NCBI GenBank assembly: GCA_964036295.1
Contig: OZ038473.1
Coordinates: 12,724,501-12,788,500 of the forward strand
From: Plumapathes pennacea
Lineage: Eukaryota; Cnidaria; Anthozoa; Antipatharia; Myriopathidae
DNA length: 64,000 bases
Reading direction: 5' to 3'
This document shows positions 3,191 through 41,600 of this stretch, piece after piece; the stretch's first letter is position 1; every line of letters starts with the position of its first letter. The position numbers were made by a program, and so were the translations under genes. The notes below the pieces were generated by a model. It was not told where the DNA came from and did no database searches. It saw only the letters and a list, made by a program, of their open reading frames with translations.

Positions 3191-3291
3191 AAAAATCATT
3201 TACACGTTGTGTTTTACACAGTACTGATGTAACGGTAGAATGTTTAAGTAAAAAGGGCTTTTGGGGGGCAAATCTCCTCTTTCGTTAATTA

Positions 3292-3552
3292 TAAAGAGGT
3301 TATTACACGGGAAGGAGTGCAAATACGGCGGAGTATTTTTACGAGTTGGTTTTATTTTTTCGAGCCTGCTTCAGGCGAGAAACGAAGCAGGTCAAACGTT
3401 CTCGCCGCGCGCCAAATGGAACAAAAAATGACGCGTTCGTAAACTTTGCTTGCGAAAATTGATTACGTAAGCTAATAAATTCTGACGAGTGCAATACACT
3501 CCCATCTTTGCACTCGTTTTGGCCTTTATTTGCACACGAAAATGTGAAGTTG
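3292..3552. repeat. TIR element with TTATTACACG-type ends, copy 1
   Basis: This block carries GTTATTACACGGGAAGGAGT at one side and TGTGTAATAA at the other. A related block in the opposite orientation lies at 32395-32755 in the deaminase array. Shared internal sequence (a GAGTGCAATAC-type core and a GCGCGCCAAATGGAAC region) shows that they are copies of one element. Confidence 0.65.
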
Positions 3553-3564
3553 TGTAATAAATAG

Positions 3565-3850
3565 AGAATAATACATGGGTGCGCGGAGATATGAAATTTA
3601 TCTTCGAGTGTTCATGAACACGAGAAGATAAATTTCATATCTCCAAGCATCCGTGTATTATCCTATTTATTTCATAAACTCTGGTGTGATACAGAGATTT
3701 CCGCCACTAAGAAATGCAAAAACATGCAAGATCACTGCTTGGCTGATATTAACACACGTGAAAATATCGTATTTTTACGTGTGTTCAGATACGACACTTT
3801 CTCAGTGGCGGAAATCTCTATATAACACCGGAGTTTATGTAATAAAGCTC
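3565..3850. repeat. Two adjacent perfect-arm hairpins (MITE-like)
   Basis: At 3565-3665 a GGAGATATGAAATTTATCTT arm is answered by its reverse complement. At 3664-3850 a segment containing GAGATTTCCGCCACT is answered by AGTGGCGGAAATCTC, with an inner ACACACGTGAAAATA palindrome. Both look like non-autonomous inverted-repeat elements. No coding sequence is present. Confidence 0.6.
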
Positions 3851-9400: not shown

Positions 9401-11965
9401 CAAACTGTAAAAAAGTAAATTATTCATATATAAATTTGTTTTGTAACGGCTCTGTTTCAAAAAAGGTATTAGGTCTGATTCTATTTTTATTTCATTTTTT
9501 TCCCAAATAGATACAACATCTCAACAGAGGACTATGATGCGTGGAACACAGACAGTAGCTCCAATAATCAAAAGAGGTAATCTAAGATGGTACAGTAGAA
9601 CCCCGAACTCGGTTAATTCGAACTCTCCGCTATCTCAAACAGAATCCAATTTCCCTTGCAAATGAACTTGTTAGAAAATTCCCTTGGTAGAACCTGGCTA
9701 TCTCGAACTATTTCTTGCTTCTCGTTAGAGTTCGAAATAGCGAGGTTCAACTGTAATACCTTGATTACTGCTAACAAAAGTAAAATACGTGAAAAGGGAT
9801 CAAATTGTCTGAAAGTAAACATCGGTGGAATATATGCATTTGCCATCATGGAAGAAACCAATACACCTGTTCGTGTGTTACTCTAACCCTAAAAACCTTT
9901 TCTCTTGTCTGCAGTGTTATTGAAAACGACCCGAAAGTCAATGTGCTTGACACTGAATTGCAGTTGGCCATCAACACCGCTCAGTTTGGTCGCACTTTCC
10001 AAGATCGCAGCCACGTCTTCAAACTTCGTGGCCGCAAGAACAGCATTCCCGACGGAAACAACATCTATAACTTGAATGTTCGAGGCAAAAGAGGCAACAT
10101 TGTTCAGACGTATCCAGCAGTGGAATATGACTTCATTCCCAACAAACTGAACATCAAGAACGGCGACATGGTGCATTTTCAGTGGACTGGTGAGTAACCT
10201 GCGTTGAAGTTCGGTCAATTTTTAAATTTTAATTACTGCTGGTTTTAACCATCGAATTATAATTCACAGCGTGTGGGACAGCGCGAAAATACGTTTTTCG
10301 GCCAGTTTATTTTTGAGGCCCATTCATGAACAGTACAATTTCCAGTGTTATTGTAGCCACTTGCATCACACCCAAAGTTAACTTTTAACTTGCGTCCCAG
10401 CAACTTTTCCCATACAAATCTTAATATTTCTGAACTTTCAAGTCCTGCCAAATTTGATACATATATGCCATAAACATGAAATTTTGCGTGTCTACACATC
10501 TTTCGACGCTCTTTTCGTTTCTGTCACTCAAAAAGCCTTAGGTGATGAACTTTCAGTCACAAGGGGGATTTGGTCATGTGACCCGTCTGGTGCAAAGGAC
10601 CTAATCTCCAAAGGTTTCCACTAAAAACAGTGTTTGATTGTAATGGTTTTGTTTGCTGCATAAGTAAGCTGTGTTGATGGTAGCATGTTCTTGAATAATA
10701 ACAGCACCATTATTCAATAATTATCTAGAAAGCAGTGCTTGCTCTGGACAAACAAATGAAATTTCTGGACCAGAATAAATTCCAATCAAGCTAGTTGAAA
10801 AAAATGTTCTTTTGGTGTGCACTGAGAACAAATGCCCTAGCTTTGACTTGATCATGTTTTAACCATTTGATTAGAATTTGTTAGCAGTGCAACCTCTGTT
10901 TTCACATGCAGGTTCTAACACAAACAGTAAAGATGTTGCTGGAGAAGGAAAAGCAGGTGAAATAGAATTTTACAGTATGCCCAAATTCACAAAACTTGTA
11001 AATATGTATACCAACACATTTACAAAACTTTTAACTCCCAAGCTTCAAATACAAACTCTTTCAACCATTCAAGAAAATGGATGATGTAGTGAGAATTGCC
11101 TGACTGTCTTATCAGCTTTCATCTGACAAGTGATAAATTCTCCATACTGCATTACATTATATATCTCTAGTGAGGGACTGAAGGAGAAAAGGAGAAATTC
11201 AAAGTCTATCTGAAAGTAAAAGGGTCAAAAATTGTCAAAACTGCACCAAAGGTTCTCTAGAATCAGGGGCGGATCTAAAAAAAAAAAATATATATATATA
11301 TATGTATATACAGCAAAACTTGAGAATCCCAGCTATTAACACAAGTTTTTTTGTTTGTGCTTTACATATTTTTATTCACTAAAAGGCTAAAAGAAGTAAC
11401 TTTTAAAATTCTGGATGACTTTAATCAAGCTTGAAACACATTTGGGGTTAGAATTAATTTATACATTTGAAACTTTCTTGTTTTTCAATTTATGTTTCTT
11501 TTCTCAGATATATCAGCTTTTTAGCAACACTGTTAATCTGAATTTACAGAAGGTTTATGTACGTACAGCTCTGGGGAGTTAAAAGTTAAACTTCTCTGAT
11601 CTTTAAATTCTTTAGGCACCGACAGGAGCAACATAGTTGAATCTGAAATTCCAGCGAAAAACTACCCCCTCAAAACACCAAAAATGTTTGGTGGTGCCAA
11701 AGTGATCTGGTCCAGCCATAAAACGGGGAATCCCTCAGCTGAGGATGTCGCAGTGAGCATGGCAAGTGCTGGGTTCTACAGCTGCGCAAAGAGCAGTCCG
11801 TCGTGTGTCCAGAAAGGTTCACTAAACACGCTTCTTGACAATGCGGCTGCTTCATACCCTGGCATGGTATTGCAGTTTAAGAAGAAAGGCTGCTATCACT
11901 ACCTTTGTTCCAGAAATAATAACTTCACTAACCGAAGCCAGAAAGGAACACTGTGCATTGCTTAA
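6421..11965 (+). CDS. DD3-3-like secreted protein, gene A (9 coding exons)
   Basis: Exons: 6421-6576, 7099-7176, 7625-7937, 8437-8649, 8977-9334, 9511-9576, 9915-10189, 10912-10956, 11616-11965 (1,854 nt, 617 residues). All joins keep the frame. Residues 1-21 form a signal peptide, and the mature chain begins [16 protein letters not shown]. Further family landmarks are [10 protein letters not shown] (exon 2), IEWTNQHG (exon 3), [13 protein letters not shown] (exon 4), [16 protein letters not shown] (exon 7), GSNTN...GTDRSN (exons 8-9) and [12 protein letters not shown] near the C terminus. The family is named after Dictyostelium DD3-3, whose biochemical function is not known to me. The YPAVEYDF...[12 protein letters not shown] segment resembles a cupredoxin-type beta-sandwich, but that is inference. 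Intron 1 appears to start with GC rather than GT (CAG|GCATGT); paralogues B and C use GT at the same place. The gene is tail-to-tail with gene B. Confidence 0.88.
7955..8165. repeat. Tandem repeat in intron 3 of gene A
   Basis: Several diverged units each contain GTCTGAAATAGGGT, with spacing of roughly 35-45 bp. It starts just after the exon 3 splice donor. Confidence 0.7.
8182..8341. repeat. MITE family 1 copy (AACCCTTTCACTCCCAAG termini)
   Basis: This is a non-autonomous element with inverted ends. One end reads as a variant of CTCCCAAGAGTGATCAAC, and the other reads TTGGGAGTGAAAGGGTTAA. It is the most abundant repeat in the window, with about a dozen recognisable copies or fragments. This copy is in gene A intron 3. 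Confidence 0.8.
8695..8931. repeat. MITE with GGGCCGATT/AATCGGCCC ends
   Basis: The inverted termini GGGCCGATT and AATCGGCCC are flanked by TAA on both sides, a likely target duplication. The element sits in intron 4 of gene A. The inner arms (GTCTAA and GTTTAAA segments) are also partly inverted. Confidence 0.7.
9593..9753. repeat. pogo/Tigger-like MITE in intron 6 of gene A
   Basis: The element begins CAGTAGAACCCCGA and ends AGGTTCAACTG, flanked by TA on both sides. Inverted CAGTAGAAC-type ends with a TA target duplication are typical of pogo/Tigger-derived MITEs. A related element lies at 44949-45102. Confidence 0.7.
11029..11226. repeat. MITE family 1 copy, diverged
   Basis: It begins TTAACTCCCAAGCTTCAAAT and shows the family core (AACCATTCAAG, GATGTAGTGAGAATTG, TCAGCTTTCATCTGA). 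The right end is degraded. It lies in intron 8 of gene A and starts 73 bases after exon 8. Confidence 0.7.
11280..11310. repeat. A-rich / (TA)n microsatellite
   Basis: A run of A residues passes into alternating TA within intron 8 of gene A. Confidence 0.8.
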
Positions 11966-13138: not shown

Positions 13139-16100
13139 TTACACGATGGTAATAGTGCCCTGCTGGTCGCGATTCGAAAAATTATTATTCCTGGTACATC
13201 CGTAGACAAATGTAGCCGGAGCCGTAGACCTTTTAGTACGCCTCCTTCGGCCTCTCCTGGTTCTGGTTCTGCTCCTGCCAGCTGTACTTCCGCCTCCCGC
13301 AGTGACCAACGACCCAACACCGCCTGGATCTTTGATCCTGAATAACGGAGCCTTGTAAGAGGCAGGGGCGTCATTGAGTAGCCTGTTAACACGAGTACCA
13401 GCGCCCATGGTCGCCATGTCACGGGCCAGGTTTAATCCTGGGTTTGGACCGAGAACTTCCACGCGCTCATTGAAGAATGAACCACCATTGGGGGCAGGCA
13501 TCGGAGTCGCGCCACTTTGATCCCACATCACAAAATTACTCCTGTCGGTATCTACAGACAAGGGGGGCAGACAAATAGCGAGACAGACAGAGAAACGGCT
13601 CAGCTACAAAATCCCACTTGAATTCAACACTTTTGTGCAATGACCGCTGACTAGAAAAAAAGGTGATAGCTGACTCGAAATATTACTCACTTCGCCTGCC
13701 TTGGCCGTCATCGCCAGTTTGCCCATCTCCACCATTCGGTCCGTTGTTGTGGCGATTCGAACCTATTACACAAGAAGATCAACGTCATCAAAAAAAAAAA
13801 CGTCATCAAAGAAAAAAAGAAGTCAAATCGGACAGAATCGGAACACGACTCAAAGTTCTCTGCACCCTTCCTCACGTAAATCAGACCTGTGGTATAGCCG
13901 GCTCAGAACCAGCTTGAATATAACCTGTTTGTCCGGTTTGAGCATAGCCGGTTTGTCTGGTATAACCGGTAACGTAAGTAGTGACCAGATACAAACTTCT
14001 ACTTAAGATACATGTTTAGGTTGATTATGGAGAAAATGGCGGGCAATCTATTGCCCTTGTTTCAGGCTCCCAAAATACGTTTTTGTAGGTTATTAACCGT
14101 CTACTTCTATTTCGAGATAAAATTTCACAACGTGTGCAGGCCATGTTTTTCGCGTGCAAAACTTGATGTGTTAGAACTAATTTATAGTTGAGTATCGAGC
14201 CCCGGTATCAAGCTTCTTGGTTAAGTCTTTACAGACTACAAAATCCGCACTTGAATCCAAAGTCTTGTAGAGTGACCGCTGACTCAAAAATAAAGTGACA
14301 GCACGGCCCTCACCTGCTGTTTGGAAAGCCACCACTTCGCCGGCTTTCACAACAAGATCCTTGGGGGAATAATTGTATTCAATAGCCGGGTAAGTCTGAC
14401 CATTGTTGCCGCGCTTTCCAATCGTCACAACGTTGTGAATCACGGTTCCCTCGGGTACGTCGGCCGGTTCAACGGAAAACACGTGTGAGCGATCTTGGAA
14501 GGTGCGTCCATGTTGAGCGGTGTTAATAGCTTGGTTAAGCTGTACGCCTGGTGCAAGCTGCAGTGGCTGATTGTTGTCGAGCCTAAAAAGGTGACGTCAT
14601 CATCAAAATAAAATCCTATTGACTTATGGGTAAAAAATCCCAAAATACTTTGAGCGCACATTCTCAGCATTTCTCGCTGCCGCGGTTTTCCGCAAAGGTA
14701 AGAGGGAAGCTTGCAGTGCGCGCAGATGATTGTGTGTTTTTTTTTTATAATCTTGCTTCCCAAAAGTTATCAGAATTTTGTGCAAAACAAGCGAGGGCGG
14801 GGAACTGGAATAGTGAGCGTGCAAAGGATCATGAGCTTTTTACCCATAAGTCAACAGGATTCGAGACACTGTGAAAATACAATTTTGACGTCCCTTCCGT
14901 TGGTCAACATTCAGCGTTATTACTATCTAACAAGAGGTAAAATTTTACATCATGTACGAGCCTCATTTTTTTTTGTACAATTGACGTTACAGAAGGTGCA
15001 TTGAACTAATACTTGGGTATCCAGTTAGAATTTTGAGTTTCCTGGCCCAGTCAAGAGGCGTAAAGCCTTGCACGAGCTACAAAAAGTGCAACCAAATTTG
15101 TTTTCATTTCTAATTTTGTGCAATGACTGCTGACTTGGAAAACTGATCGGGTAAGAAAACTTACACGTTGTTGTCTGATCTGTCCAAATTCCTCGTCACG
15201 TCCCCCGTTGTGATGTTGTATCTGCAAATGTCAGAACCATTGGAAAGAACTTGTTTCAGTCTTTTCCTGCGTTCAGCTTTCACTTCTTTCATCTTCCGCT
15301 CCCCCCTCCCCCTCTGCCACTTTTTGATCATCGGCTTACATCAGACCCTGGGCCACCGAAGTGTAACCCAATGTTCCCACAAATATTTGGTTATGTGATT
15401 TCAGTCAAACAGTAAATAATGCAAAACCATATTTTCAAATAATAATAATAACAAAACAAAACAGTATTTAGAAATGAAAAAAATGTAACACGACATAATA
15501 ATATATTAATAAAATATAACGTATATTAATAAATATATATTATATATTAATAAAATAAAGTAATAATAAAGACTTACAAAATTCGCGTTACCATCGATAC
15601 TCTTCCCTCCACTCGTGGAAGTGTAATGAACTGTCGGATAAACCCATTGTAATTCTCAGCGACAGTAGGCAGTGAATCTACTACCGGTGGTGGCGCGGGC
15701 ACCAAACACTCCTCTCTTGGCCCAACGACCATAGAACAGTCGACAGGAAAATCCCAGACTCCTCCATTTGCTTCACACGTGGTTTTAGTTGTCATGGCTT
15801 CACGTTTGTACATGTAAGTCCGACCCATTCTCCATTCTCCTCCTTCTGCCGCGCAGTCCTCGGCATTCCAGGGAATCAAATTGTTGTTATTCACTCTACC
15901 AGGTTTGTAACAGACCCCTTAGGAAAACGGGACAGAAGCCAGCATAAAAACTTCTCCCACAAACGAAACAAACGAAAAATTATTCCGTATTGGTATAGTA
16001 GAATCACCAAAATGTGCTTTCTGTCAAGATGAAGCCGAATCCATCGAGCATTTACTCTTCTCCTGTACGATATCCAGTGAGTTTTGGAAACACGTCCTGT

Positions 16101-24600: not shown

Positions 24601-27005
24601 AAGGGAAACATGGCGACATATGACATGGCAGTCCCAAGATTTGCCACAGACCAGTCTTGTGTCACGCGATTGCGGTAGGTGCGACAGATGTTGCAAGCAA
24701 ATGACATTTCATTTCCTCGCACAGCTGATTCGTCTCTTTTCAAGTAAAAACCCAACCTCGTTCCCAGGCTCTTTCATCTCGGCTCCCTCTTTCTTTGGAA
24801 TGAAAGAGCCTGGAAACGAGGTTGGTAGAAGCCAATAGTAAATTACTTGTATCGGCTTCTAGTTCTCTAAAGAGCTTTTCTTTTACATCCAGTGTGATTG
24901 GTCAAACGAAAACTGCTCTTTGTGATAGTCGACGTATGTTTTTCTTCATTTTGACAGATATAACATGTCGATCACAGATGTGGAGGGCCTAGATGCTAGT
25001 CGAAACAACGAGTAAGTCATGTACCATGTGATCGGCAATTTGAATCCAGTTGACTTTTGGGTAACCTAGATAAATAGCCCATAATTCTTTGCGCGCACAC
25101 TTATACGAGATTCAGTAAAGTTTGCCTTGTCAGTCGCCACGCCGTATTTCCCCATGATACCACTAATACATTTTTCTCTTCAATGGTTGGAAAAATCTGC
25201 ATTTTGACCTTGTCAGTGAAGGATTAACTCTTTCTATTTTACTCGATACAGTGTTAGGTTGCACAGCCAATTGAAGTATAAGATCTCACTACATCACTCG
25301 TACGTTTTTCTCTTGAACGGTTGGAAGAATTTTACAATTCTCACTATATCACTTACGCATTTTCTTCTCGAATGATTAGGAGAATTTGTATTTAAAACTC
25401 AGGACTGAAAGAGTTAAACGAGTTTTGTAGAGGCATCCGTAAGTAGAACTGCCCGCTTGTACGAGACGAGAGTGTGCCGTCCAGATAGTTTCGACTGCAC
25501 ATTTATTTTACTCCTTGTTTGTAGATTCGACGACAATAATCCAAACATCCAGTACGAGGGTGTCACATTACAACTGGCCATTAACACGGCGCAAACGGGC
25601 CGTACCTTTCAGGACCGCAGTCACAAGTTCATTGTGAGCCCACCCCCTCCCACCGTTCCGCGCTCGGCAAAAATAAGAAATTTGAACGTAATCGGCAAAC
25701 GTGGGAACAATCAGCAGGTTTACCCTTCTATCGAGTATGGCTTCTCGACGGACAATCTAAGAGTCAGCACCAATGATTTCATTCATATCCAATGGGCAGG
25801 TGAGTTCAAAGTCTACGCATACAGTTCAAAACCACTAATATCGCACAGAAATTATATGAACCTTGTGGACACCGAATCAGCGGTCATCTTATTTTTCGAG
25901 TCTGCAGTCATTGTACAAAAACTAGAAAATCTGCGATCACTGTCACTGAACAAAAATTACACCAAGCCTGCGATCACCAAATCAGCGGTCATTGTACCTT
26001 ACGTTCGATGCAGGAGGTCATTGCAACTTGCAAGTTTCGAGTCGTTTGTTTGTTTTGTTTCCAAGGTTACTGCCAGGAAAAATGGCATTGGTTAGATTGT
26101 ATTCACTAATTTGAAACTGTTCCATAAAGACGTAAACTCGAATTGGAATGAAATTAAAAATAATAATTAAAATATCAGCAAAAATGGAATGTTCTCAAGA
26201 AAACCCAAATTAGAATTTCCAAGAATTTTTCCTCGAACACGGTGTGTTTCTAAGAAGACTGATAGTAAGTGTTTCACCAGGTTCAAACTCCAACCCACAA
26301 AACAATGCTGGCAACGGAAGAAGAGGTACAGTAAAATAAAACCTATAGACTATGTTGCTTGTAATATTCAGCTCTTAGTTTAGAGTATAAAGATTTGAAG
26401 ATTTTTAAGCTTGGTTTTCACGAGCCGGAGACGCTATCATAAGCGCAAACATAAGAGTCCTAATTCAGAATGAAAACGGGCTCGACGCAAGTGCAAGTAC
26501 GCGGATTAAATTTTTCTTTTTCCTCGTGCTTGCGGCTGCATTGATTTTTCGAAAATTTTCGTGACGTCACGCGAGCTACTCAGGGTCTTGCAAAAGAATA
26601 ACTCAATTTCTTTATCGTTCTCGATTTCTCTCTCTGTCTCTCTGTCTATCTGTCACAGGCACGGACAGAAGTAATATTGTTGGGATGAGGAACGCGGCTA
26701 CCAATCTTGGTTTACCGATAGCACAAACCCCACTCTTCAGGAACATGGTCGCAGTCGATGCGGCCAATGGACGAAGACTACCTTGGTATCGCGCCGCGAT
26801 GAAGCTAGCCACTTCTGATTACCCCCGCCCACGCAATAATGGCAACAACGGCTGGCTCGACAACTCACCCGCCTCGACTACAGGAGTGGTCGCTAGAGTC
26901 ATGCGTCCCGGAACCTACAACTACATGTCCACCAGGAACAACAACTTCTCCAATCGTAGCCAGAAAGGCGCGATCATTGTGAGCAGTGGTCGCAGAATTC
27001 GATAA
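21646..27005 (+). CDS. DD3-3-like secreted protein, gene C (9 coding exons)
   Basis: Exons: 21646-21798, 22292-22369, 22643-22931, 23450-23668, 24323-24674, 24958-25011, 25525-25799, 26281-26325, 26659-27005 (1,812 nt, 603 residues), with the same intron phases as A and B. The start was placed at 21646 because it gives a compact signal peptide just before [15 protein letters not shown]. Family landmarks include [47 protein letters not shown] and [12 protein letters not shown]. It deviates from A and B in exon 3, where the conserved WTNQHG is replaced by FFAQHG. The protein is likely secreted and its function is unknown. The gene is head-to-head with gene B. Confidence 0.88.
21960..22075. repeat. 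33 bp tandem repeat in intron 1 of gene C
   Basis: Three near-identical units of 33 bases, each built on ACAAACAAAACAGAAAAATA, lie in a strongly purine-rich tract. Because the period is a multiple of three, long but meaningless open frames run through it on both strands. Confidence 0.8.
22971..23142. repeat. MITE family 1 copy (first of a tandem pair)
   Basis: It lies in intron 3 of gene C and ends ACTCCTGGGAGTGAAAGGGT. It is nearly identical over its core to the next copy at 23191-23402, so the pair may stem from local duplication. Confidence 0.85.
23191..23402. repeat. MITE family 1 copy (second of a tandem pair)
   Basis: This is a full-length member. It begins GTTAACCCTTTCACTCCCAA and ends TTGGGAGTGAAAGGATTAA. 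It ends 47 bases before the exon 4 acceptor of gene C. Confidence 0.85.
23825..24155. repeat. Foldback element, copy 2, in intron 4 of gene C
   Basis: The arms of about 70 bases around the loop GAGGCGCTTCGCCGAGTGAG (23910-23930) are almost perfectly complementary. A second inverted pair, TTTTTTACCACAA and its complement TTGTGGTAAAAAA, bounds the tail at about 24006-24155. It is the same family as 2775-3190. Confidence 0.8.
24754..24827. repeat. Short hairpin element with AACCTCGTTCCCAGG ends
   Basis: AACCTCGTTCCCAGGCTCTT is answered by its near-perfect complement, AAGAGCCTGGAAACGAGGTT. A similar hairpin lies at 38305-38354. Confidence 0.7.
25165..25418. repeat. Degraded MITE family 1 fragments in gene C intron 6
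   Basis: Two partial copies show GGTTGGAAGAATTT, TCTCACTATATCACTTACGC and related core pieces without intact termini. Confidence 0.55.
25865..26000. repeat. Repeated TCAGCGGTCATTGTACA motifs in gene C intron 7
   Basis: The motif GAATCAGCGGTCAT / AGTCTGCAGTCATTGTAC / AATCAGCGGTCATTGTAC appears three times here, soon after the exon 7 donor and in the sense orientation. It matches the terminal motif of the dispersed repeats in gene B introns. Confidence 0.55.
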
Positions 27006-27987: not shown

Positions 27988-29301
27988 ATGGCACAAAACG
28001 GAGAGCAAAGCTGCGGTGATTTGAGTAACAGGATTAGCAAGAACGATTTGTTCGCTTGCCTGGCGCTGTGGATGGAGAAAAGTCCCTTAATAACATCGTC
28101 TTCCACAAATGACCAACAACAAGCACCCGACTCAAGCAAAGAACGCAAAAGAACCAACGCAATTGGCGTGGTTATCGTGGATTCGACGGAAACTGTTGTG
28201 AGTGTGGAATGCACGCGCGGCTTTCTGCATGGAGTGCAAAGCGCTTTGCTTGATAGTCACGGTCGACTCAAAGGCAGCGTGATTTTTGCGTCAAGGAAAC
28301 CATGTGCTTGTTGTACTAAGTTGATAATATCTGCTGGAGTTTCGCGAGTGTTTTATTTGCCGTTTGAGCCCGAGAATCCCAATGAAGCAGACATGAACTG
28401 CGTTGATAAGTTGTTTCAGACGTCACCTGTAGCGCAATCTATTTACCTTCCGAGTATTGAAGAAACTACTGTTCAAATATGTAGGGCAAAGCAGTCGCCC
28501 TATGCAAATGCCAACCACAAGCAGTTTACAGAAAACGACAACTGGGGAGAGAAAGTTTCTTCATCTCTTCTGGAATACGAAACTTCAAAGAACGAAATCG
28601 ATAAGAAGATATTTAATATGATCAAGTGGATTGATGGAGTCACCTTCGGTGATGTCCCAGGCAATATGACGTTTCATACAGACTACTGCCGGAGAGACCC
28701 GAACAGACCCCGAACCTCGACCGAGGAATGGCCGACTAAGCCCGAACCTAGAAACGAGAATTGGCAAAAGCTCGCGCTTCATTTATCGAGAATGGCGCAA
28801 ATGTTGTCACAGAGATCAGACGATCCAAAGCGCGGAGTTGGCGCGGTCATAACGAAGCAAAACCAGATTGTTGCTGTCGGTTGGAACGGCTACCTCCCAA
28901 AAACACAGCCTGGTGATTTTCCAACAGCTTCTCACCATGACAACGCTTGTCTCGAGAAGACGAAATATCCCTTCTCCGTCCACGCTGAGCAAAGCGCCAT
29001 TTTGAGGAGAAATACTCGCGAGATTGGCCATTGTTCCACCACGATTTTTGTCAGCAAAAAACCGTGTGACGAATGTGTGCCGCTGCTGCTCAAAACCGGA
29101 ATCCAAAACGCCGTCTATCCGCGCCCAGCACGAAAACGTCCGATTAACAACTGTCTGACTTATCACTTGATACGCAAGTGCATCAGAAAAGAGGAAATAC
29201 GAGGCTTCAAGAGCACTCAGTCCAACGGTACAAATGCGGCAGCAAATTCAGACATCGAGGACAACAGAACAACAAGGTACGCAAGGAGAAAAAGAAATTA
29301 A
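27988..29301 (+). CDS. CDADC1-like protein with two deaminase domains, copy 1 (intronless)
   Basis: A single uninterrupted frame encodes 437 residues from the ATG at 27988; the in-frame stretch before it has no ATG. The N-terminal domain (about 20-140) has His81 followed by Gly-Val, and Pro105-Cys106-x2-Cys109. Zinc ligands are therefore present but the catalytic Glu of the His-x-Glu motif is absent. The C-terminal domain (about 255-385) has His332-Ala-Glu334 and PCDEC with Cys360 and Cys363, the full zinc-hydrolase site of cytidine/dCMP deaminases. The two-domain layout matches CDADC1, whose vertebrate member has been described as a dCTP deaminase. The substrate here is inferred only. The tail is basic (TRYARRKRN), a possible nuclear signal. 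Copies 2 and 3 are closer to each other than to this one. Confidence 0.85.
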   Translation: MAQNGEQSCGDLSNRISKNDLFACLALWMEKSPLITSSSTNDQQQAPDSSKERKRTNAIGVVIVDSTETVVSVECTRGFLHGVQSALLDSHGRLKGSVIFASRKPCACCTKLIISAGVSRVFYLPFEPENPNEADMNCVDKLFQTSPVAQSIYLPSIEETTVQICRAKQSPYANANHKQFTENDNWGEKVSSSLLEYETSKNEIDKKIFNMIKWIDGVTFGDVPGNMTFHTDYCRRDPNRPRTSTEEWPTKPEPRNENWQKLALHLSRMAQMLSQRSDDPKRGVGAVITKQNQIVAVGWNGYLPKTQPGDFPTASHHDNACLEKTKYPFSVHAEQSAILRRNTREIGHCSTTIFVSKKPCDECVPLLLKTGIQNAVYPRPARKRPINNCLTYHLIRKCIRKEEIRGFKSTQSNGTNAAANSDIEDNRTTRYARRKRN

Positions 29302-30110
29302 GAGAAAAAGCTGTGTTCACGTTTTCACTATAAGACCAACGAGGAAGCTTGAAAATAGACGGGTGATCTCTGGACTGGAAGAAAAACACTTCTCTTAGTT
29401 CGTGAAGACACCTGGATGTAATTTGGCAAAACGAAGGTGTATAGCTGGATCAGCTGGCTGCGGTGAAAGTTATCAGGTGCCAAGTTCTCCATAGCATTTA
29501 CGAAAAGACATGTAGCGGTTCCTAATTGGTTCAGCTGCTAAGTTCTCTATATGCATTATATCATTAGTTATGACGAGATAATTTGGGCGACACAAAAACA
29601 ATTGAGCGTAACATTCTGTAAAGGTTTATTGGTCTCGCTTAGAACACTAGAACACTTAAAGTAAAAGCAGACAAAAAACAAATGTGCCTTTCTTTGCTCA
29701 GATTACCGTAAAAACTAAAATTATAAACCAGTTCTCCATCGGGTGGCTATTTAGCTAGAATCTACTCAAATAAAGTGTCTTTAGAAATAACTCCTCAAAG
29801 CTTATATTTCGTTCACACCGGTGGGATAAACAAAATAATATCCGTAGCATCTCAAAACAGTATGCAACAACTAACCAACATTCATAAAAAGCAGCAAATC
29901 ATCTCTTGCTTTGTCACCTGGTTTCTTAGAAACATTAATTTTTAAGAAGTGAATAATCAGTCAAATATTGGGGCGTTAGAGCTTTTTTCACAACGTTTAA
30001 AATGAACGAAATGCTTTGAAAGAACAGGCATTGATTAAACAGTTTGTCGACACAAGAAATTCGAAAAACATCATTTTGCAATATCCAGACTCGATCATTA
30101 ATGTCCACGC
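29302..30110. other. Intergenic region between deaminase copies 1 and 2
   Basis: No gene is seen. AATAAA at 29769-29774 is a candidate polyadenylation signal for copy 1. Confidence 0.5.
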
Positions 30111-30118
30111 AATTACCT

Positions 30119-30175
30119 GCAGTTTTGTCATCAAACTCAACAAAACATTGAGTCCTTAGCAACCCGGTCCACAAA
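30119..30175 (+). promoter_or_regulatory. Upstream repeat shared by deaminase copies 2 and 3
   Basis: The segment containing AACAAAACATTGAGTCCTTA followed by GCAACC recurs upstream of copy 3, twice (about 34312-34367 and 34599-34655). All three lie within about 440 bases of a deaminase start codon. This shows that the promoter region was duplicated with the gene, and it may hold control elements. Confidence 0.5.
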
Positions 30176-30271
30176 TTAAAACTTCGTCATTCGCACTTCA
30201 CGCCGTGGCACTACAAACTGTCGCCAATCGAACTAACCGAAAAGAACGCAACGAAAGGCGTAAGAACTAAA

Positions 30272-31636
30272 ATGGCCGATTCTAAAACCGATGTAAAAGG
30301 TACTTCATCTGGACGTACGGGTCAAAAAGTGAAGAAAAGTGACTATCAGTATCAGAGACGCGTAAGTCGAATTTCGAAGGAGAACGTCTTCATGGTTCTT
30401 GCCATGTGGATGGAGCAGTCTCCTCTGGCCGAAGCAACAGCAGAGAAAGCTGGGGCAGTGCTGGTTACTGAGGATAACCGTCTTTATGCAATGGACTGCA
30501 CAAGGGACAGTGTTCACGCTATGGCGCGATTGCTGATGCGTCACTCGCAGAAATTGAAAAACTCCACTATTTACACATCGAGGAGGCCTTGTTCCTTTTG
30601 TGCAAAACTGCTGGTCCAGTGTGGAGTCAGACAGCTGTATTATCTGCCGACCAAGCCAGAGAACGCTGATGACAAAGAAGACCTGTACAGAGTTGACAAC
30701 CTCCTTAAAGTCGCACGGCTCGCTCACAGCTACTTCGTGCCCAATCTGGGTGAGGAAGTCGCTCACAAAACGGAAGAATTGGAAAAGAAAATTGACAAGC
30801 CTGGCACATCAAAATTGATAAAGGAACTTCAGGACGACCTAATGAGTCTGTATTGGAAGGAAGATTGGATGAAAGAAGCCGCAAAGAAACTTCACTGGAC
30901 TGCATGTGATGATAAGATGCTGCCCCAATTCAAGATAGACTTTGAGACGATAATGAAATGGATATCAGCAGTGACAGTGACCGCAAGAGAGTGCCATGGC
31001 TTTGTCCAATACTGCCCGACTCCAAAAGAGGGAGCTAACGGGGTACTCAATACTAAAGACGAGAGCTTTTATCGCCACTTGTTGGCAATGGCACAAATCT
31101 TGGAACAAAGGACGGACGACCCGAAAAGAGGCGTCGGAGCCGTTGTTTCGAAGGAAAACGAGATTGTCGCCACCGGATGGAACGGATTCCCCACTAAAGC
31201 TTTGTATGGCGAATTCCCCAGGGCTTCAGATAAAGACAAGGAAGCAGCCCAGGAACAGAAGAAGTACCCATACGTCATCCACGCCGAGCAAACCGCTTTC
31301 CTGATGAAAAATACTGCAGACATCAGTGGATCAGTTCTGTTCGTAACTAAAGTACCATGCCATGAATGCGTTCCTTTGCTGAAGCTGGAAAAAGTGACGA
31401 AGTGCGTCATTGGAATTACCGAACAACAAGCTGAAGAGGAATTCAAAAGGAAAGGCGAAGGCGAAAATCTCAGTTATGAAGTATTCTCCAAAGAGGTAAA
31501 GTTGGGAACCTTCACTTGCTTCGTTGCAAAGGAAGCGAACCAAGCCGAAAGGCACCGCAGCACCAGGATAGCAGTTAAAAGACGACAAGAACTTTCCCAT
31601 CAGAACTCCTCGAAGAACAAAAGAAAGAAATCATAA
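30272..31636 (+). CDS. CDADC1-like protein with two deaminase domains, copy 2 (intronless)
   Basis: One frame of 454 residues. The N-terminal deaminase-like domain has His82-Ala-Met84 where an active enzyme has His-x-Glu, plus Pro106-Cys107-x2-Cys110 (RRPCSFC). The C-terminal domain has His337-Ala-Glu339 and PCHEC with Cys363 and Cys366, preceded by DDPKRGVGAVV and TGWNGFP, the usual substrate-pocket strands of dCMP-deaminase-like proteins. It is therefore predicted to be a zinc-dependent nucleotide or nucleic-acid deaminase with one inactive, possibly regulatory domain. The C terminus is highly basic (KRRQELSHQNSSKNKRKKS), likely a nuclear signal. It lies 970 bases downstream of copy 1 on the same strand. 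Intronless structure suggests amplification of a processed gene. Confidence 0.85.
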   Translation: MADSKTDVKGTSSGRTGQKVKKSDYQYQRRVSRISKENVFMVLAMWMEQSPLAEATAEKAGAVLVTEDNRLYAMDCTRDSVHAMARLLMRHSQKLKNSTIYTSRRPCSFCAKLLVQCGVRQLYYLPTKPENADDKEDLYRVDNLLKVARLAHSYFVPNLGEEVAHKTEELEKKIDKPGTSKLIKELQDDLMSLYWKEDWMKEAAKKLHWTACDDKMLPQFKIDFETIMKWISAVTVTARECHGFVQYCPTPKEGANGVLNTKDESFYRHLLAMAQILEQRTDDPKRGVGAVVSKENEIVATGWNGFPTKALYGEFPRASDKDKEAAQEQKKYPYVIHAEQTAFLMKNTADISGSVLFVTKVPCHECVPLLKLEKVTKCVIGITEQQAEEEFKRKGEGENLSYEVFSKEVKLGTFTCFVAKEANQAERHRSTRIAVKRRQELSHQNSSKNKRKKS

Positions 31637-31758
31637 TATAGGTTCAGTATATACCAATATCACCACCTCCTCTATAATCTCGTATTATAACCCCCACCCC
31701 ACCTTTTTGCTTATGTATCATATGGGTGAAAAAGGTCGACTGTCGATTGACAAGTATA

Positions 31759-31764
31759 AATAAA
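31759..31764 (+). terminator. Candidate polyadenylation signal of deaminase copy 2
   Basis: AATAAA lies 123 bases after the stop codon. Confidence 0.55.
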
Positions 31765-32394
31765 TATAAAAAAAAGAGAAGAGCCTTCAATCATAGATGC
31801 TGTATTTACGGAGGCAAAAGGTTTTCATTTGCGGTTCGCAGAAGTGGCCATTTGATATTTCTGCTGGCCACAAAGACGTATAGATTTGAGATGCTACAGT
31901 AGGTTGCTAAATTCATGGATGTTTGAAATACTTTTACACACTAGAATTATTAGTGTTGGGCCCTTCAGTCTTTTCACTGCTCGAACCATATATTGCATAC
32001 ATGGCCATACATACTGTAGAACTGCCAAGTGAAGGTGAGGTCACAAGATAAACAGTCTTACCTCTGATGACTTGATGAAGATACATCCAACGCGATTGAG
32101 TTCGTATCATTTGTACACTTTAAGGTAAACCTCATCACCACCAGTACAGGTTCCTTAACATCCCCTACATCAGGAAACAGAATGAGGTTGAAGGTTTTTT
32201 TTTAATGGGAATAGAATCATCTACTGACTCTACAAATAATTAAAGAAGTTACTCTTGTGTGTGAATTAATCCGGACACACCCCCTCCCCCATACAAGTGC
32301 TTAGTCAGAGCATGAATTATATGTTTGAAAACTTATCCAAAAAAAGAGAACTGCATGAGACTGCACTCTTAAGAACAAAACTGAATTACAAATA
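31765..32394. other. Intergenic stretch after deaminase copy 2
   Basis: I see no coding sequence or clear repeat here beyond short A/T-rich runs. Confidence 0.5.
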
Positions 32395-32755
32395 CACACA
32401 TTTATTACACGACTTCACATTTTCGAGTGCAAATACGGGCCAAAACGAGTGCAAAGATGGGAGCGTATTGCACTCGTCAGGAACCAGATCAACTGGTTTA
32501 TTAGCTTACGTGATCAGTTTTCGCAAGCAAAGTTTACGAACGCGTCATTTTTTGTTCCATTTTGCGCGCGGCGAGAATATTTGCCCTGCTTCGTTTGTCG
32601 TGTAATAAACAATTTATTACACGAAAAGTCGTGCAATACGGCTGTATTTTTACTCGTCAGTTTTATTTTTTCTCGCCTGAAGCAGGCTCGAAAAAATAAA
32701 ACCGACTCGTAAAAATACTCCGCCGTATTGCACTCCTTCCCGTGTAATAACCTCT
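32395..32755. repeat. TIR element with TTATTACACG-type ends, copy 2
   Basis: It begins TTTATTACACGACTTCACAT and ends CCGTGTAATAACC, with internal CGTGTAATAAACAATTTATTACACG-like palindromes (about 32600-32628). It is the inverted counterpart of 3292-3552. It abuts the truncated deaminase fragment at 32820, so the insertion may have accompanied loss of that copy. Confidence 0.65.
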
Positions 32756-32819
32756 TTATACTCATGCCCATAACAGCCTTTAGGGATATAATCAGTTTGG
32801 TACCACTAAGTGTAGAGTA

Positions 32820-33110
32820 AATCCGTGAGATTGGCGACTTTTCCACCTCAATATTTGTCAGCAAAAAGCCGTGTGACGAGTCGTGCCACTGCTGCTGAAA
32901 ACCAGAATCCAAAACGCCGTCTATCCGCGCCCAGCACGAAAACGTCCGACTAACAACTGTCTGACTTATAACTTGATACGCAAGTGCATCAGAAAAGAGG
33001 AGATACGAGGCTTCAGGAGCACTCAGTCCAACGGTACAAATGCGGCAGCAAATTCAGACATCGAGGACAACAGAATGACCACAAGGCACGGAAAGAGAAA
33101 ACGAATTTAG
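32820..33110 (+). pseudogene. Truncated, frameshifted fragment of deaminase copy 1
   Basis: From about 32826 this matches the end of copy 1, starting just before the strand that leads to the PCDEC motif and running through the basic tail and stop. A base is missing within the second Cys region (GACGAGTCGTGCC against GACGAATGTGTGCC in copy 1), which breaks the frame. No upstream part of the gene is present. The residual C-terminal frame (32883-33110) is still highly similar, so the duplication is recent. Confidence 0.85.
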
Positions 33111-33356
33111 AGGAGAAGCTGCATTCGAGACCGAAATCCAAGTTCTCACTTTAAGACCCACGAGGAAGCTCAAATATAGACGGGTGGTGAAAAACAATTC
33201 TTACGACTTTTATAAAAAGACAGTAAGGTTCATAATTGGATCAACCGCCTACTTTGCGGCAAAACTAGTAACTGAACTTGGTAGCAAAAGTGACCGTGCC
33301 AGATCGGTGAGAGCTACAAGTTTGCCAAGTATGAAACAGCGATAACACTTAATCAC

Positions 33357-33461
33357 TACTGGATCCTAGCATGTGAAAACCATGTGATTTACCATGTGAA
33401 ATTGGGTTAAAATTCACAGGCTTTTCTCATGGTTTTAACATGCAAGGATCCAGTAGTGAAT
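33357..33461. repeat. Hairpin element with CACTACTGGATCC ends
   Basis: CACTACTGGATCCTAGCATG at the left is answered by CATGCAAGGATCCAGTAGTG at the right, with complementary inner arms. It is a MITE-like foldback between two decayed deaminase fragments. Confidence 0.75.
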
Positions 33462-33504
33462 GACCAGATGCAAGCGCGTCACTTAACAGCAATGGTCGCG
33501 GATG

Positions 33505-33775
33505 CGGGCGCACAAAGGACGTCGGTAAAACGGGTATGGGAGCTGTCTTTCTAAATCACAACGAGATTGTCGCAAATGGGTGGAACAGATTCCCCCCTAG
33601 AGATGGGTATGGTGAATTCGCTCGGGCTTCAGACGACGACAAGGAAGCAAACGAGAATCGAAAAATATACCCATACGTCATCCACGCTGAACAGAACGCG
33701 TTACTAATGAGTAAAGCAGGCCTGTTCGTGACAAAAACACCGGGTCACAAATACGTCCCTTCGTTGAATTTGTAA
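33505..33775 (+). pseudogene. Decayed fragment of a deaminase copy 2/3 C-terminal domain
   Basis: The fragment covers the GVGAV strand, a NGWNRFP motif and an intact HAEQN, but the PCxxC zinc motif has become PGHKYV, so both metal-binding cysteines are lost. The region before 33536 shows CAAAGGACG-type similarity to copies 2 and 3, with a frame break. The frame stops at 33775, well short of the normal C terminus. It cannot be an active deaminase. Confidence 0.85.
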
Positions 33776-34310
33776 TAAGTTACATGTGTTATTGGATAAA
33801 ACAAGAGAGATGGCACTCTTAGTTACAAATAGTTCTTCGATGAGATAAACGAAGCCCACTTGAAACAATGAAACCACCTGCTCAAACCAGGTCTCAAGCA
33901 ATAGCTGATAGCCGACAGCTGCATTTACCAACAACATGCAATTTAATAATACTTTCATAAATATTCATTGTGCTTCGCGAGTGTCTCCTAATCAAGATAA
34001 CAAAAAAGCTGTTTCCAAACTAATTAAGTTAAAGGAGTTTCGCCTGAACTTTGTCAAAAGAATATTCCAACAGCGAACTTGTATCTGTGTTTGAAACTCG
34101 TGGAAAATGGTAATATACTTTACTTCACTTCGGGCGACTGAAGGGCGACTTAAGGCAACCTTAGGACCCGGAGTAGGCCTAATATGTCATTACGGTGCAT
34201 TTCTTGGTACAAACTGAGGCAACGTACTTATGCACCAGTAGACCTCAGCTTCAGCTTCTGCTTCCGCTCGAAAGTAAATGAAAATTGCTGGATTTTCTTA
34301 ATAGTCGCTT
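33776..34310. other. Spacer between the deaminase fragment and the copy 3 upstream repeats
   Basis: I see nothing coding here. The part just after 33776 may be further degraded deaminase sequence (AGTTACAAATAGTTCTTCGA resembles the copy 2 region AGTTATGAAGTATTCTCCAA). Confidence 0.4.
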
Positions 34311-34311
34311 T

Positions 34312-34655
34312 CAGTCAACAAACTCGACAAAACAATGAGCCCTTAGCAACCGGATATTATATTTAAAGGTCGAAAAAAATAAGCCTTGACCTTGTCTCTC
34401 AGAATGATAAAAATCTGAAGTGGCTATGGATGAGCGATTTTGCCATGTATTTTCCCACGCAACATTCGAACTGAACGAGATGAATTAAAGAACATATAGA
34501 TCCAAGAAATGTACACACTTAATCCACGCTAATAAATTGAAAAATTATGCAGTACGAAACTGATTTCGAAACTTAAGTCCACACGGTTTCGTGCAGCATT
34601 GTCAACAAACTCGACAAAACAATGAGCCTTTAGCAACCGGATATCAATAATTAAA
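34312..34655 (+). promoter_or_regulatory. Duplicated upstream segment of deaminase copy 3
   Basis: A segment carrying AACAAACTCGACAAAACAAT and GAGC(C)CTTTAGCAACCGGATAT occurs twice, at 34312-34367 and 34599-34655. A related segment precedes copy 2 at 30119-30175. The second copy ends about 90 bases before the start codon of copy 3, in the expected promoter position. Confidence 0.5.
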
Positions 34656-34742
34656 GTCCAGCAGTCGCACTTTACAAATAACACCTTATCGTCGTCAATC
34701 AAAAGAAGAAGTCGAAAAGAATCGTTCGCAGTAAAAACTAAA

Positions 34743-36071
34743 ATGGACGATTCTAAGCCCGTCACAAATGCTAGTCCATCTGTAGGCATTACCGATGACT
34801 CTCCGTACAATCGCGGCAGACGAATTTCAAAGGAGGATGCTTTCATGGTTCTTGCCATCTGGATGGAGCTGTCTCCTCTGGCAAAGATTGTCGAAAAGGC
34901 AGAGAATAAAGTTGGAGCAGTGCTGGTTACGGAGGAGAACCGTCTTTATGCAGTGGACTGCACTAGGGACGGCGTTCACGCCATGGCGCGACTGTTAATG
35001 AAGCACTCCCAAAATTTGAAAAACTCCACTATTTACACATCGAGGAGGCCTTGTTCGTTTTGTGCAAAACTACTGGTCCAGTGTGGAGTCAACCAGCTGT
35101 ATTATCTGCCAACGGAGCCGGAGATAACTGATGTTAAAGACCTGCCTAGAGTCGAAAACCTTCTGAAAGTCGCACGGCTTGCTCACAGTTACTTCGTGCC
35201 CGAAGTAGACGAGAAAGTCATGCAAAAAACGAAGGTAAAGGTAGAAAAGAAGAGCACATCAAACACTCCAAAATTAACAGACGAGCTTGAAGCTGACCTA
35301 GTGAGTATGTACCTGAACGAAGATTGGATCAAAACTGCCGCAGAGGAACTTCGCTGGACTGCATACGATGATGAAGGCATGCTGGACAAAATCATGGGTG
35401 ACTTCAAGACACTAATGAGATGGATATCAGAAGTGACAGTTATAGCCTATAGAGAGGCGGCCATCCTAGGCTTTGTCAAATATCCGAGGTCTTCGAACGC
35501 GGAAGCCCTCGATGCTGATGAGGAGCTCTGTCACCACTTGTTAGCAATGGCAGAAATATTGGCAGAGAGGACGGACGACCCGAAGACAGGCGTCGGAGCC
35601 GTTATTTGGAAGGAGAGCGAGAAACAGATCGTCGCCACCGGGTGGAACGGATTCCCCGCCAAAGCTCTGTATGGCGAATTCCCCAGGACTGCAGATGCAG
35701 AGGAGAAAAAGTATCCATTCGTCATTCACGCCGAGCAGAACGCTCTACTGATGAGAAATACGGCAGACGTCAGCGAATCAATCTTGTTCGTAACAAAGAT
35801 TCCGTGCAACGAATGTGTCCCTTTGCTAAAGCTGGAAAACGTAAACAAATACGTCGTTGGAATTAAAGAACAAAAAGCAGTAGAAACTGAAACGCAAGCG
35901 AAAATTAAAGCCACCGAAACGCCACAGAAAGATGACGGAAAACTCAAATATGACAAATTCTTCACAGAGGTAATGAAGGAAGGGGAAGGAAAATTCATCT
36001 GCTTTGTTATGAAAGAGGAGAAGCCCCCTGCAAAGCTAGGTTCCGGTGCATCCATGAAACTTGACTTGTGA
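34743..36071 (+). CDS. CDADC1-like protein with two deaminase domains, copy 3 (intronless)
   Basis: One frame of 442 residues. The N-terminal domain carries His79-Ala-Met81 and Pro103-Cys104-x2-Cys107: zinc ligands without the catalytic Glu, as in copy 2. The C-terminal domain has DDPKTGVGAVI, TGWNGFP, His329-Ala-Glu331 and PCNEC with Cys355 and Cys358, a complete active site. The linker between domains is Lys/Glu-rich and helical in character. The tail is less basic than in copies 1 and 2. It is clearly the sister of copy 2. Prediction: active zinc deaminase acting on a cytosine nucleotide or nucleic acid; substrate unknown. Confidence 0.85.
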   Translation: MDDSKPVTNASPSVGITDDSPYNRGRRISKEDAFMVLAIWMELSPLAKIVEKAENKVGAVLVTEENRLYAVDCTRDGVHAMARLLMKHSQNLKNSTIYTSRRPCSFCAKLLVQCGVNQLYYLPTEPEITDVKDLPRVENLLKVARLAHSYFVPEVDEKVMQKTKVKVEKKSTSNTPKLTDELEADLVSMYLNEDWIKTAAEELRWTAYDDEGMLDKIMGDFKTLMRWISEVTVIAYREAAILGFVKYPRSSNAEALDADEELCHHLLAMAEILAERTDDPKTGVGAVIWKESEKQIVATGWNGFPAKALYGEFPRTADAEEKKYPFVIHAEQNALLMRNTADVSESILFVTKIPCNECVPLLKLENVNKYVVGIKEQKAVETETQAKIKATETPQKDDGKLKYDKFFTEVMKEGEGKFICFVMKEEKPPAKLGSGASMKLDL

Positions 36072-38645: not shown

Positions 38646-41600
38646 TCATTTTGACGAAGTCGACTTTGGTCGTCGTCTGCGGCGAAGTCGGATAGTGGTC
38701 GGAGTCGACTGAACGACAGCGTAGTTTTCTTTGCGGCGACGCTTTGATGGTCGGCTTGTGCTCGGCTTATTTTCGGGGCTGCTTCGTGTCCTCTTGGCAC
38801 GCACGACAGAATATCGACTTTCTGTAAATCGGACAATTTTGACCGGGGTCACTCGAATTTTGGTTGGAGATGTCGACTTGCTTTTGCTGTTGGTCTCAGC
38901 AGGACGCGTCGATCGCTTTGGTGTTTGTGAAACTGTTGAACTCGACCTGCAAATAAGATATTCCTAAAAATTAACTCCCAGCAACAGCTATAAAACACTG
39001 GCCAAACGGACTGGCAATTGAGCCAACCCAGGGTTTTACTTTTTCGTAAACTGCGCATCGCTTGGTCATACTGCACTTGGGTCGGCTAACGCAAATTTTG
39101 GTCTAGATCACATTTACACGTCGACGCAAGTTTTTACCGTTTAACCACCCGTACGCAAGCTAAAAATAAACTTTCCCAACCTTTTGAAAAGAAAATATAT
39201 GAATGATGTAGTGAGAATTGATTGTTTAATATGCTTTCGTCTGAAGGTTCCACACCTTAGCCTTGTTTCGAAACGGAATATATTAAAATTTGTAGAAGCC
39301 ATTTAAACGTACCTTTTCGTAGCAGAGGACGCCTTTCGAGAGCGAACCTCCGCCACAAATTGCTGTAAGTTCTTCCCTCTCCTGATAAGTCGATCAACGC
39401 CAGAAAAACTCCCCGCTTTGGCCGCACTGGACCGGTGCAGTTTGCTGTGCACGTGCGACCTCAAACTCTCATACGTCACATCGCATAGCTCGCAGTACCC
39501 TCGCTTAGGTGACTGGCGTTTCGCCGGCGCATTCCCTCGCGGTTTTGCGGCATTCCGCGCAAGGGGTAATCGCGGGCTCTTGGGTGAGCTATGAGAGCGA
39601 GTGCGCATGGCAACTGGCTCGTCAAACGGACTGTAACCAGGCGGGGTGTCGAGATTCAGACGAGGCCACGATTTCATCTCTTTGAACAGCGGTCTGTATT
39701 TCCTGGCGATGAAAACAGAATGTCTAAAGCGTGAGATTATGAGATTGCACTTTCCGTGTAGCCTATTCCAGGCTCTCAGAAACTGGAGGAAAGACGCGGA
39801 GGAAAAACGCGCTGAGAGCCTGGAACAGGCACAGTATCTCCATTTTTTCCAAGATAAGATTTTAGCTATTTGAAAATTTCGTCCCATAGTTCTTCTCGAT
39901 CATCGTACAGTTCACGCATGCGAACTTTGTCAGCGAACCAATGGAACCCCTCCCCTTCCCCTGAGGTAATAGTGCTATCACTCAGCTCGCTTTCAAAAGA
40001 TGTCATACTCATTTACCCATCAAAGGTCACATGTCAGCCCGAAGAATTGGATCCTCGCGTAATGCCGAGTGTACACAACAAGTTAGGCCTACAATACCCA
40101 TGCTGTATCCTTCTCAACATATATGTCCAATACTGTCGACTCGTCACGACTAGTAAAAATAAAATTACGATACGTATGGTTCGTATAAAAGAACAGTTGT
40201 CGACCCGCGTGGATCGTAAAGCTCGTTCAAGACTCATCCCAATAGCGGGACTTTCAACTCTCTTTCCTAACACGCATTTCATAGAGCGGTTTTCGGATGA
40301 CTGTCGGAATAATTGTGTGATTGTTTTGGCTTTGCATTTGCTTCGCTTTCGGATTGGTCCACACAAGTATGGCAGCATTCTCAACCAATCAGGAACAAAA
40401 CCAAAACCAAAACCAAAACCAAACACTTCTCACGCAAGCGATGGCGTGTACTCGCACTGCTGATTGGAAAGTAAAACCAAACGCAAGACAATTACTTTGG
40501 CTTCCAATTGGCTGAACTGTTTTCTCTCAGTCTCTGTGATTGGCCTGTGTGATTACTTTGGTTTTGGTTTTCGACAGTCATCCGAAAACGGCTCTATACA
40601 TGCTACTATCACTTGCGTCGCCTCAAGTAGACATCTCATCATTCTCACAGACTTACCGACTGCGGTCCTCAACTTTAATAAACGATCCTCTCAGCATGCG
40701 CACATTGCCTTGCGACCTCTCCTGGTCACGTGACAGCCGCTTTTCCCGAGACTCGATCCACTTCAAAACCCGTCCAACCGGTTTGATCTCGATTTTCCAG
40801 ATGCACGCATTCTTCAGCACGTCTGTGGAGCTTGCCTTCTGTTGCTTGGCGGCTTTTTGAAGCATGAGTTGCGCACGAGTTTGCTATGAGAGAATAAGGA
40901 TTCAGAACAAGTACGCACGCTTGCACAGGGCACAGAGAAATGACTTCATATGACACTACAATTCATGGAATTTGCAAGAACAAGAGAGAAGTGACGCATA
41001 AGTTCTCGGAAATTATGTAACTCGATAAGCAAAACGTTCGCTAACTTATTAACGAAAAAGTAAAGTAAAACGGGCAATATGTTTTCGCAACAAGACGCGC
41101 GGCGACACTGCATGGCATCTAACAGTACTTTGGCGTGCGTATTTTAACGCAAAACCCAATTCTACGACGTTGCTGCAACTTGCAGCACGGGTCAAGATAC
41201 GCGCCAAAAAGTTCGACATACTGCAACTATTGCCCGTATTACTTCTAGAAGGGTGCAAGTTTTCTTTACTGACGTCAGAATGACGTAACAATGCTCATAG
41301 TTTAACCAATCAGATTGTCAGATAGTTCATGTGAGACGTGTACTATACTACCCTGGGTTCCAGAGGTTTCTCGCTCTCGGAAATCCGGGCTGCGCGGCCC
41401 CGTAGAGCTGGGGCCGAAATCACGGGCGGCGGGGGGCTGGGGGCGAGGCGAAGCCGAGGCGAGAAACCTCTGGTAACAAACGTCGTTGTCTTTGAAAGTG
41501 CCGCTCCAATCACAAGGCGTTTTAAAGCTCCCGAGTCAAAATCTGACCCTGGCACTCTCATTGGCTCAACCAAGATTGTTTTCTCACGAAGTCAGTGATT

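Follow-up and report, generated by a model that had tools for sequence, protein, structure and literature searches.

Here we report an expanded family of intronless genes related to human CDADC1, represented by a tandem array in a 64,000-nucleotide stretch of DNA (C12:12724501-12788500, hereafter the window). The array holds three intact genes (W1 to W3, or genes 1 to 3), and a search of the whole genome (290 Mb, 24 contigs) recovered nine intact two-domain copies at four loci. In the explanation that we favour and consider probable, these proteins combine a zinc-locked scaffold with a deaminase of cytidine or deoxycytidine triphosphate ((d)CTP), and their host is probably a non-vertebrate animal. 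The N-terminal domain (N-domain) would form a block that contributes to trimer and hexamer assembly, as it does in human CDADC1; the C-terminal domain (C-domain) would convert (d)CTP to (d)UTP, for which homology gives the best support in the window genes. Variation would be concentrated in the linker and in the equivalent of the human substrate-response loop. Judged by homology, deamination of (d)CTP is the most likely activity of the window genes, on a scaffold to which the dead domain contributes. Such proteins may serve to control nucleotide pools or, as the initial annotation proposed, to deplete them in antiviral defence, a role that the results neither favour nor oppose.

The initial annotation had described three intact intronless genes and two decayed fragments on one strand, and all five are present, as judged by open reading frames, matches to the Pfam family PF00383, and DNA or protein identity (Table 1). 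The array is real, but it is only part of the family. PF00383 was the top Pfam family for all three proteins, with two matching stretches in each. The motifs were also as first described: the N-terminal triads read H-G-V, H-A-M and H-A-M and are accompanied by PCxxC, and the C-terminal site comprises H-A-E and PCxxC. Gene 1 has H81-G-V83, PC106xxC109 and E129 (equivalent to human E157) in its N-domain and a complete C-domain site (H332-A-E334, K357, PC360xxC363). Gene 2 has H82-A-M, PC107xxC110 and E130 (again equivalent to E157), followed by a complete HAE, K and PCxxC site, and gene 3 has HAM, PCxxC and a Glu at the E157 position, together with a complete C-domain site. Both decayed fragments sit between genes 2 and 3, and the second of them contains three stops in its genome-search match (33518-33826).

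The proposed CDADC1-type assignment was borne out by profile searches and trees. Since gene 2 alone matched human CDADC1 with E=4.7e-37, the match of the window to this protein is not due to chance. When a profile of the nine copies was compared with PDB sequences, human CDADC1 (9HFQ) was matched with E=4e-68 over profile positions 5-420 of 443, a range that includes both domains; the next match, DCTD (1e-21), involved the C-domain only. The copies are 25-30% identical to human CDADC1. Residues identical in the human protein and all nine copies occupy 21 positions in the N-domain, 18 in the C-domain and none in the linker, a count that leaves out human positions 58-86 and E400 (mutated in the construct). 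The same searches bear on the view that the copies deaminate DNA or RNA in the manner of AID/APOBEC proteins, some of which pair an inactive with an active domain and lie in gene arrays. The tandem array, the combination of a dead and a live domain, and matches to PF08210 (E 3.8e-4 to 0.032, below the curated cut-off) would suit such an editor. However, PF00383 was the best family by far, and no APOBEC protein was among the 12 PDB rows that the nine-copy profile matched at E of 0.001 or below (the trees contain no APOBEC row). Human CDADC1 had no mutator effect in a bacterial assay, according to the accessible text of PMC12184417, and we regard nucleic-acid editing as very unlikely.

Phylogenetic trees were based on the nine copies and human CDADC1, which contributed ten C-domains and ten N-domains, and on 64 viral and 2 DCTD rows. 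The ten C-domains formed one clade, with support of 95/96 when the N-domains were in the tree and of 100/99 against the 64 viral and 2 DCTD rows, and the ten N-domains formed another (100/100). Human DCTD and the DCTD of this genome paired apart from the family (98/93 and 100/98). The nine C-domains of this genome clustered (94/90 and 93/75); within the N-domain clade, the tree gave no settled order among human CDADC1, gene 1 and the other eight copies. Approximately unbiased (AU) tests rejected a grouping of the nine C-domains with the two DCTDs (p-AU 1.7e-4), of the N- and C-domains of this genome with each other (p-AU 5.1e-5), and of the two human domains with each other (p-AU 3.0e-4). An independent fusion or duplication was therefore rejected, although the groupings under test were defined with knowledge of the first tree. 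Because these contrary groupings were rejected, the two-domain protein with its dead N-domain most simply appears to descend from a fusion shared with human CDADC1.

In the N-domain of human CDADC1, Gly replaces the catalytic Glu, and E157 binds the zinc and closes off the site; PMC12088426, in the text accessible to us, gives this domain an architectural role. The catalytic Glu was missing from all nine N-domains (W1-W3 and G1-G6 have Val, Met, Met, Ala, Met, Ala, Ala, Ala and Ala, respectively) and present in 64/64 viral rows and both DCTDs. The zinc ligands were retained in 9/9 copies, and the E157 position was occupied by Glu in the nine copies and in human CDADC1 and by His in both DCTDs. 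Glu was found there in 3 of the 64 viral deaminases, a thin control, since 54 have a gap in this column. The best reading of the dead N-domain is that it is a zinc-locked scaffold or structural block, as far as its residues allow prediction. The initial annotation had instead suggested a nucleotide sensor, that is, a dead domain that binds a nucleotide and regulates the C-domain. Complete retention of the zinc ligands and purifying selection in the W2/W3 pair would be expected of a sensor as well, but all nine copies kept the residue by which human CDADC1 caps its zinc and closes the site. Moreover, the available text of PMC12088426 identifies no allosteric regulator and assigns a putative DCTD-type allosteric site to the C-domain rather than to the N-domain. 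We consider a sensor role quite unlikely and retain the scaffold as the preferred reading.

Six further intact copies (G1-G6) lie on contigs C1 and C2, each in a single open frame. The genome search with PF00383 yielded 26 matches, 18 of which were domains of the nine genes, two from each. The remaining eight comprised two exon pieces of DCTD, two known fragments of the family, a stretch at C1:0.369 Mb, and three matches that by eye were ADAT2-like, cytidine-deaminase-like and guanine-deaminase-like. The stretch at C1:0.369 Mb (L022:4387-4581), so far unassigned, resembles an exon or fragment of DCTD, carries HAE and PCxxC, and has a very long tree branch. The search with gene 2 yielded 21 matches, each of them a family gene, a family fragment or a piece of DCTD. 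Both searches score the best candidates only, and among these 26 and 21 matches there was no further two-domain or intron-containing CDADC1. The DCTD gene of this genome is separate (C1:37.55 Mb) and has at least two exon-like pieces. Decayed copies number at least five, two in the window and one each in L016, L009 and L012. Together with the nine intact copies, they uphold the birth-and-death turnover first proposed from the window. The insertion that splits the decayed copy in L016 (approximately 1430-3695) has GGTATCAGGATACC-like sequence, whole or partial, at both ends.

The human CDADC1 gene is a single copy and has introns. Introns are missing from all nine copies in this genome, and this one feature suggests that the founder was a processed (retroposed) copy, which would then have undergone tandem and dispersed duplication. 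Missing introns would likewise be explained by recent acquisition from bacteria or viruses, and single-domain phage dCMP (deoxycytidine monophosphate) deaminases do match the C-domain. Against this stand several results: in none of 635 matching phage records did a single place cover 80% of gene 2; of 245 viral loci, 80 were kept, and none of these contained a frame matched twice, at separate places, by the C-domain model; one pattern-based genome scan gave no bacterial or archaeal relative (132 pattern matches, none confirmed); and in the trees the family groups with human CDADC1. The phage-record coverage, the prokaryote scan and the trees disfavour a recent phage or bacterial origin, which we regard as highly improbable.

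The N-domain is under purifying selection in the W2/W3 pair. Its ratio of nonsynonymous to synonymous substitution rates (dN/dS) was 0.26, compared with 0.51 for the linker and 0.33 for the C-domain, and dN exceeded dS in 0.00 (N-domain), 0.01 (linker) and 0.00 (C-domain) of 300 bootstraps. Between the G3/G5 and G4/G6 lineages of the cluster on C2, N-domain dS was 0.15-0.22 and C-domain dS 1.5-4.4, and values computed in windows showed a step. Among codons for the same residue in G3 and G6, 9/118 differed in the N-domain and 36/67 in the C-domain (Fisher 4.5e-12). The four between-lineage comparisons gave Fisher p values of 8.3e-7 to 4.5e-12, with equally long identical runs in at most 15 of 2000 shuffles. 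For W2 vs G2 and W3 vs G2 the contrast was weaker: Fisher tests gave 3.0e-4 and 2.7e-4, and the run tests 143 and 527 of 2000 shuffles. Among the other pairs, G1 vs G6 alone fell below 0.05 (0.03). Because N-domain dS is so low between lineages whose C-domains have strongly diverged, the N-domain has likely been homogenised by gene conversion in the C2 cluster. A broader scheme would make this part of a modular system, in which gene conversion keeps a common N-terminal scaffold for co-assembly of paralogues while C-domains, linkers and loops diverge, so that mixed, multi-substrate hexamers form an innate antiviral nucleotide-depletion arsenal; we consider this unlikely. In the parts of PMC12088426 accessible to us, human CDADC1 is not consistently raised in virus-positive tumours and its loss is well tolerated in mice.

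The C-domain motifs HAE and PCxxC and the lysine equivalent to human K423 were found in 9/9 copies. Five triphosphate lysines (K337, K392, K423, K450 and K452) are described in PMC12088426 (text seen in part) as conserved from sharks to humans; the window genes retain the first three. At the K423 position both DCTDs have Leu, and Lys was absent among the 60 of 64 viral rows checked. K392 does not separate CDADC1 from DCTD, since both DCTDs also have Lys there. Five of the 23 Lys and Arg residues of the human C-domain stay basic in all three window genes, and three of these five are triphosphate lysines. Copies differ widely in length at the counterpart of the human substrate-response loop, a stretch that in G6 contains an in-frame tandem repeat of the GANQAPGEVPAS type.

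Several points weigh against the explanation that we favour. The retention of triphosphate lysines among the basic residues is marginal (hypergeometric P 0.048). K337 is present in 3/9 copies, all of them window genes, and absent from the other six; K392 is present in 7/9, G4 and G6 having neither lysine; N367 is present in 7/9, with Ser in G3 and G5; and the Tyr at 457 aligns in 5/9. For K450 and K452 the window copies offer no clear counterpart in a stretch of varying length. The younger pairs on C2 are little constrained (dN/dS 0.92 for G3/G5 and 0.74 for G4/G6), and the C-domain of G3/G5 reaches 1.26, which is not significantly above 1. The synonymous contrast between N- and C-domain is absent from W2 vs W3 (Fisher 0.32). 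The last approximately 30 residues of G4 differ from those of all other copies, so "intact" here denotes an open frame with both domains only. To these may be added the long branches of the human rows, the timing of the AU groupings, and a retroposition that is deduced from missing introns alone.

Because the copies outside the window keep fewer triphosphate lysines, substrates may have diversified. In such a family the window genes would act on (d)CTP, and the copies on C1 and C2 would have become inactive or switched to different substrates. The losses of K337, K392 and N367 and the loop stretch of widely differing length, with its repeat in G6, favour this possibility; the presence of HAE, PCxxC and K423 in all nine copies argues against it. 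We consider it a serious possibility, though one with less than an even chance, and it is compatible with our explanation for the window genes.

CDADC1 has been called vertebrate-specific or said to have evolved in vertebrates in two 2025 PNAS papers (PMC12184417, PMC12088426; text accessible in part). With nine copies in a non-vertebrate-looking animal, CDADC1, dead domain included, seems to predate the vertebrates. If the host is indeed a non-vertebrate, the family would correct these two recent statements and place the origin of the zinc-capped, dead domain in a far more ancient ancestor. It also offers nine naturally varied sequences with which to ask what CDADC1 is for, a question left open in the accessible text of both papers. 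Expansion and turnover in an animal without adaptive immunity of the vertebrate type would make the antiviral hypothesis testable. Database records may already call invertebrate proteins CDADC1-like. Literature searches gave no paper on dCTP deaminase in cnidarians or on a dCMP deaminase domain-containing protein in corals; the one paper retrieved for CDADC1 and invertebrates concerns rockfish longevity, and CDADC1 did not occur among the rows listed for broader searches. The main text of a coral study using poly I:C (polyinosinic:polycytidylic acid) does not contain the word "deaminase" (PMC3723955), in a coral growth study a deoxycytidylate deaminase domain is attributed to one uncharacterised gene (PMC8973463), and an annotation of Acropora includes one cytidine deaminase, with no occurrence of "dCMP" (PMC3750612), each in the portion of text available.

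Table 1. Family members, decayed copies and upstream sequences (plain numbers are window positions)
Feature	Location	Strand	Description
W1 (gene 1)	27988..29301	+	CDADC1-like, intronless, 437 residues; open frame, ATG 27988, end 29301
W2 (gene 2)	30272..31636	+	CDADC1-like, intronless, 454 residues; open frame, ATG 30272, end 31636
W3 (gene 3)	34743..36071	+	CDADC1-like, intronless, 442 residues; open frame, ATG 34743, end 36071
Decayed 3' fragment of gene-1-type copy with 3' flank	32824..33186	+	86% DNA identity to gene 1 3' end and flank (29017-29365), 365 aligned positions
Decayed C-domain fragment of gene-2-type copy	33509..33829	+	54% protein identity over 114 residues
Upstream stretch of gene 2	30098..30201	+	75% identical to gene 3 upstream stretch, 105 aligned positions
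Element copy 1 upstream of gene 3 (55-56 bp)	34314..34368	+	93% identical to copy 2
Element copy 2, closer to gene 3	34601..34656	+	93% identical to copy 1
G1	C1:20.48 Mb, L013:2475-3980		PF00383 genome search
G2	C2:35.60 Mb, L014:4736-6070	-	PF00383 genome search
G3	C2:36.11-36.13 Mb, L015:8467-9840		PF00383 genome search
G4	C2:36.11-36.13 Mb, L016:5334-6836		PF00383 genome search
G5	C2:36.11-36.13 Mb, L017:1759-3000		PF00383 genome search
G6	C2:36.11-36.13 Mb, L017:3737-5290		PF00383 genome search
Decayed copy	L016		Interrupted by insertion of approximately 2.2 kb
Decayed copy	L009		Two pieces; intervening frame reverse-transcriptase-like by eye
Decayed copy	L012		Frame broken

An upstream element with TTAGCAAC occurs once before gene 2, where 38 bp of the gene 3 element are found at 30127-30164 (89% identity), and twice before gene 3; it is perhaps regulatory. 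A simple pattern scan of the 600 bp upstream of the nine genes gave no match to patterns like those of the interferon-stimulated response element (ISRE) or NF-kB. Elsewhere in the window, positions 55232-58636 (+) hold an intronless frame of 1134 residues that combines a CHAT domain (PF12770, E=3.3e-56) with TPR repeats and whose PDB matches are TPR proteins. Intronless TPR-CHAT genes are said to be typical of cnidarians. Together with the genome size of 290 Mb and the 25-30% identity of the copies to human CDADC1, this gene suggests that the host is not a vertebrate. Exon-like frames at 9805-10197 (+), 13139-13561 (-), 25457-26095 (+) and 26685-27005 (+) appear by eye to form a duplicated gene family, with pairs that have common motifs such as TRNNNFSNR and with no Pfam match. 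A frame at 39303-39887 (-) encodes a DBF-type zinc finger (PF07535, E=3.6e-13).

Among known systems, human CDADC1 (NYD-SP15; PDB 9HFQ, 9HFR, 9HFS, 9HFT) has the same two deaminase domains on either side of a long linker, a dead N-domain that keeps its zinc ligands and E157, and a C-domain with HAE, PCxxC and K423. The family differs from it in its nine intronless copies, its low sequence identity, the lack of a clear match for K450 and K452 in the window genes, the absence of K337 from six copies, and its variable substrate-response loop. DCTD (human 2W4L and the gene of this genome) resembles the C-domain and has the HAE/PCxxC site, but it is a single-domain protein in a separate clade, is encoded here in exon-like pieces, and has Leu at the K423 and His at the E157 position. 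The double-domain deaminases of the AID/APOBEC group belong to another Pfam family, PF08210, whose matches stay below the cut-off. Finally, part of each window protein matches the anti-phage dCTPase model of PADLOC (PDLC02373; E 1.1e-15 to 1.9e-19), with the best stretches lying within positions 349-486 of the 630-position model, and the use suggested for the family would be comparable.

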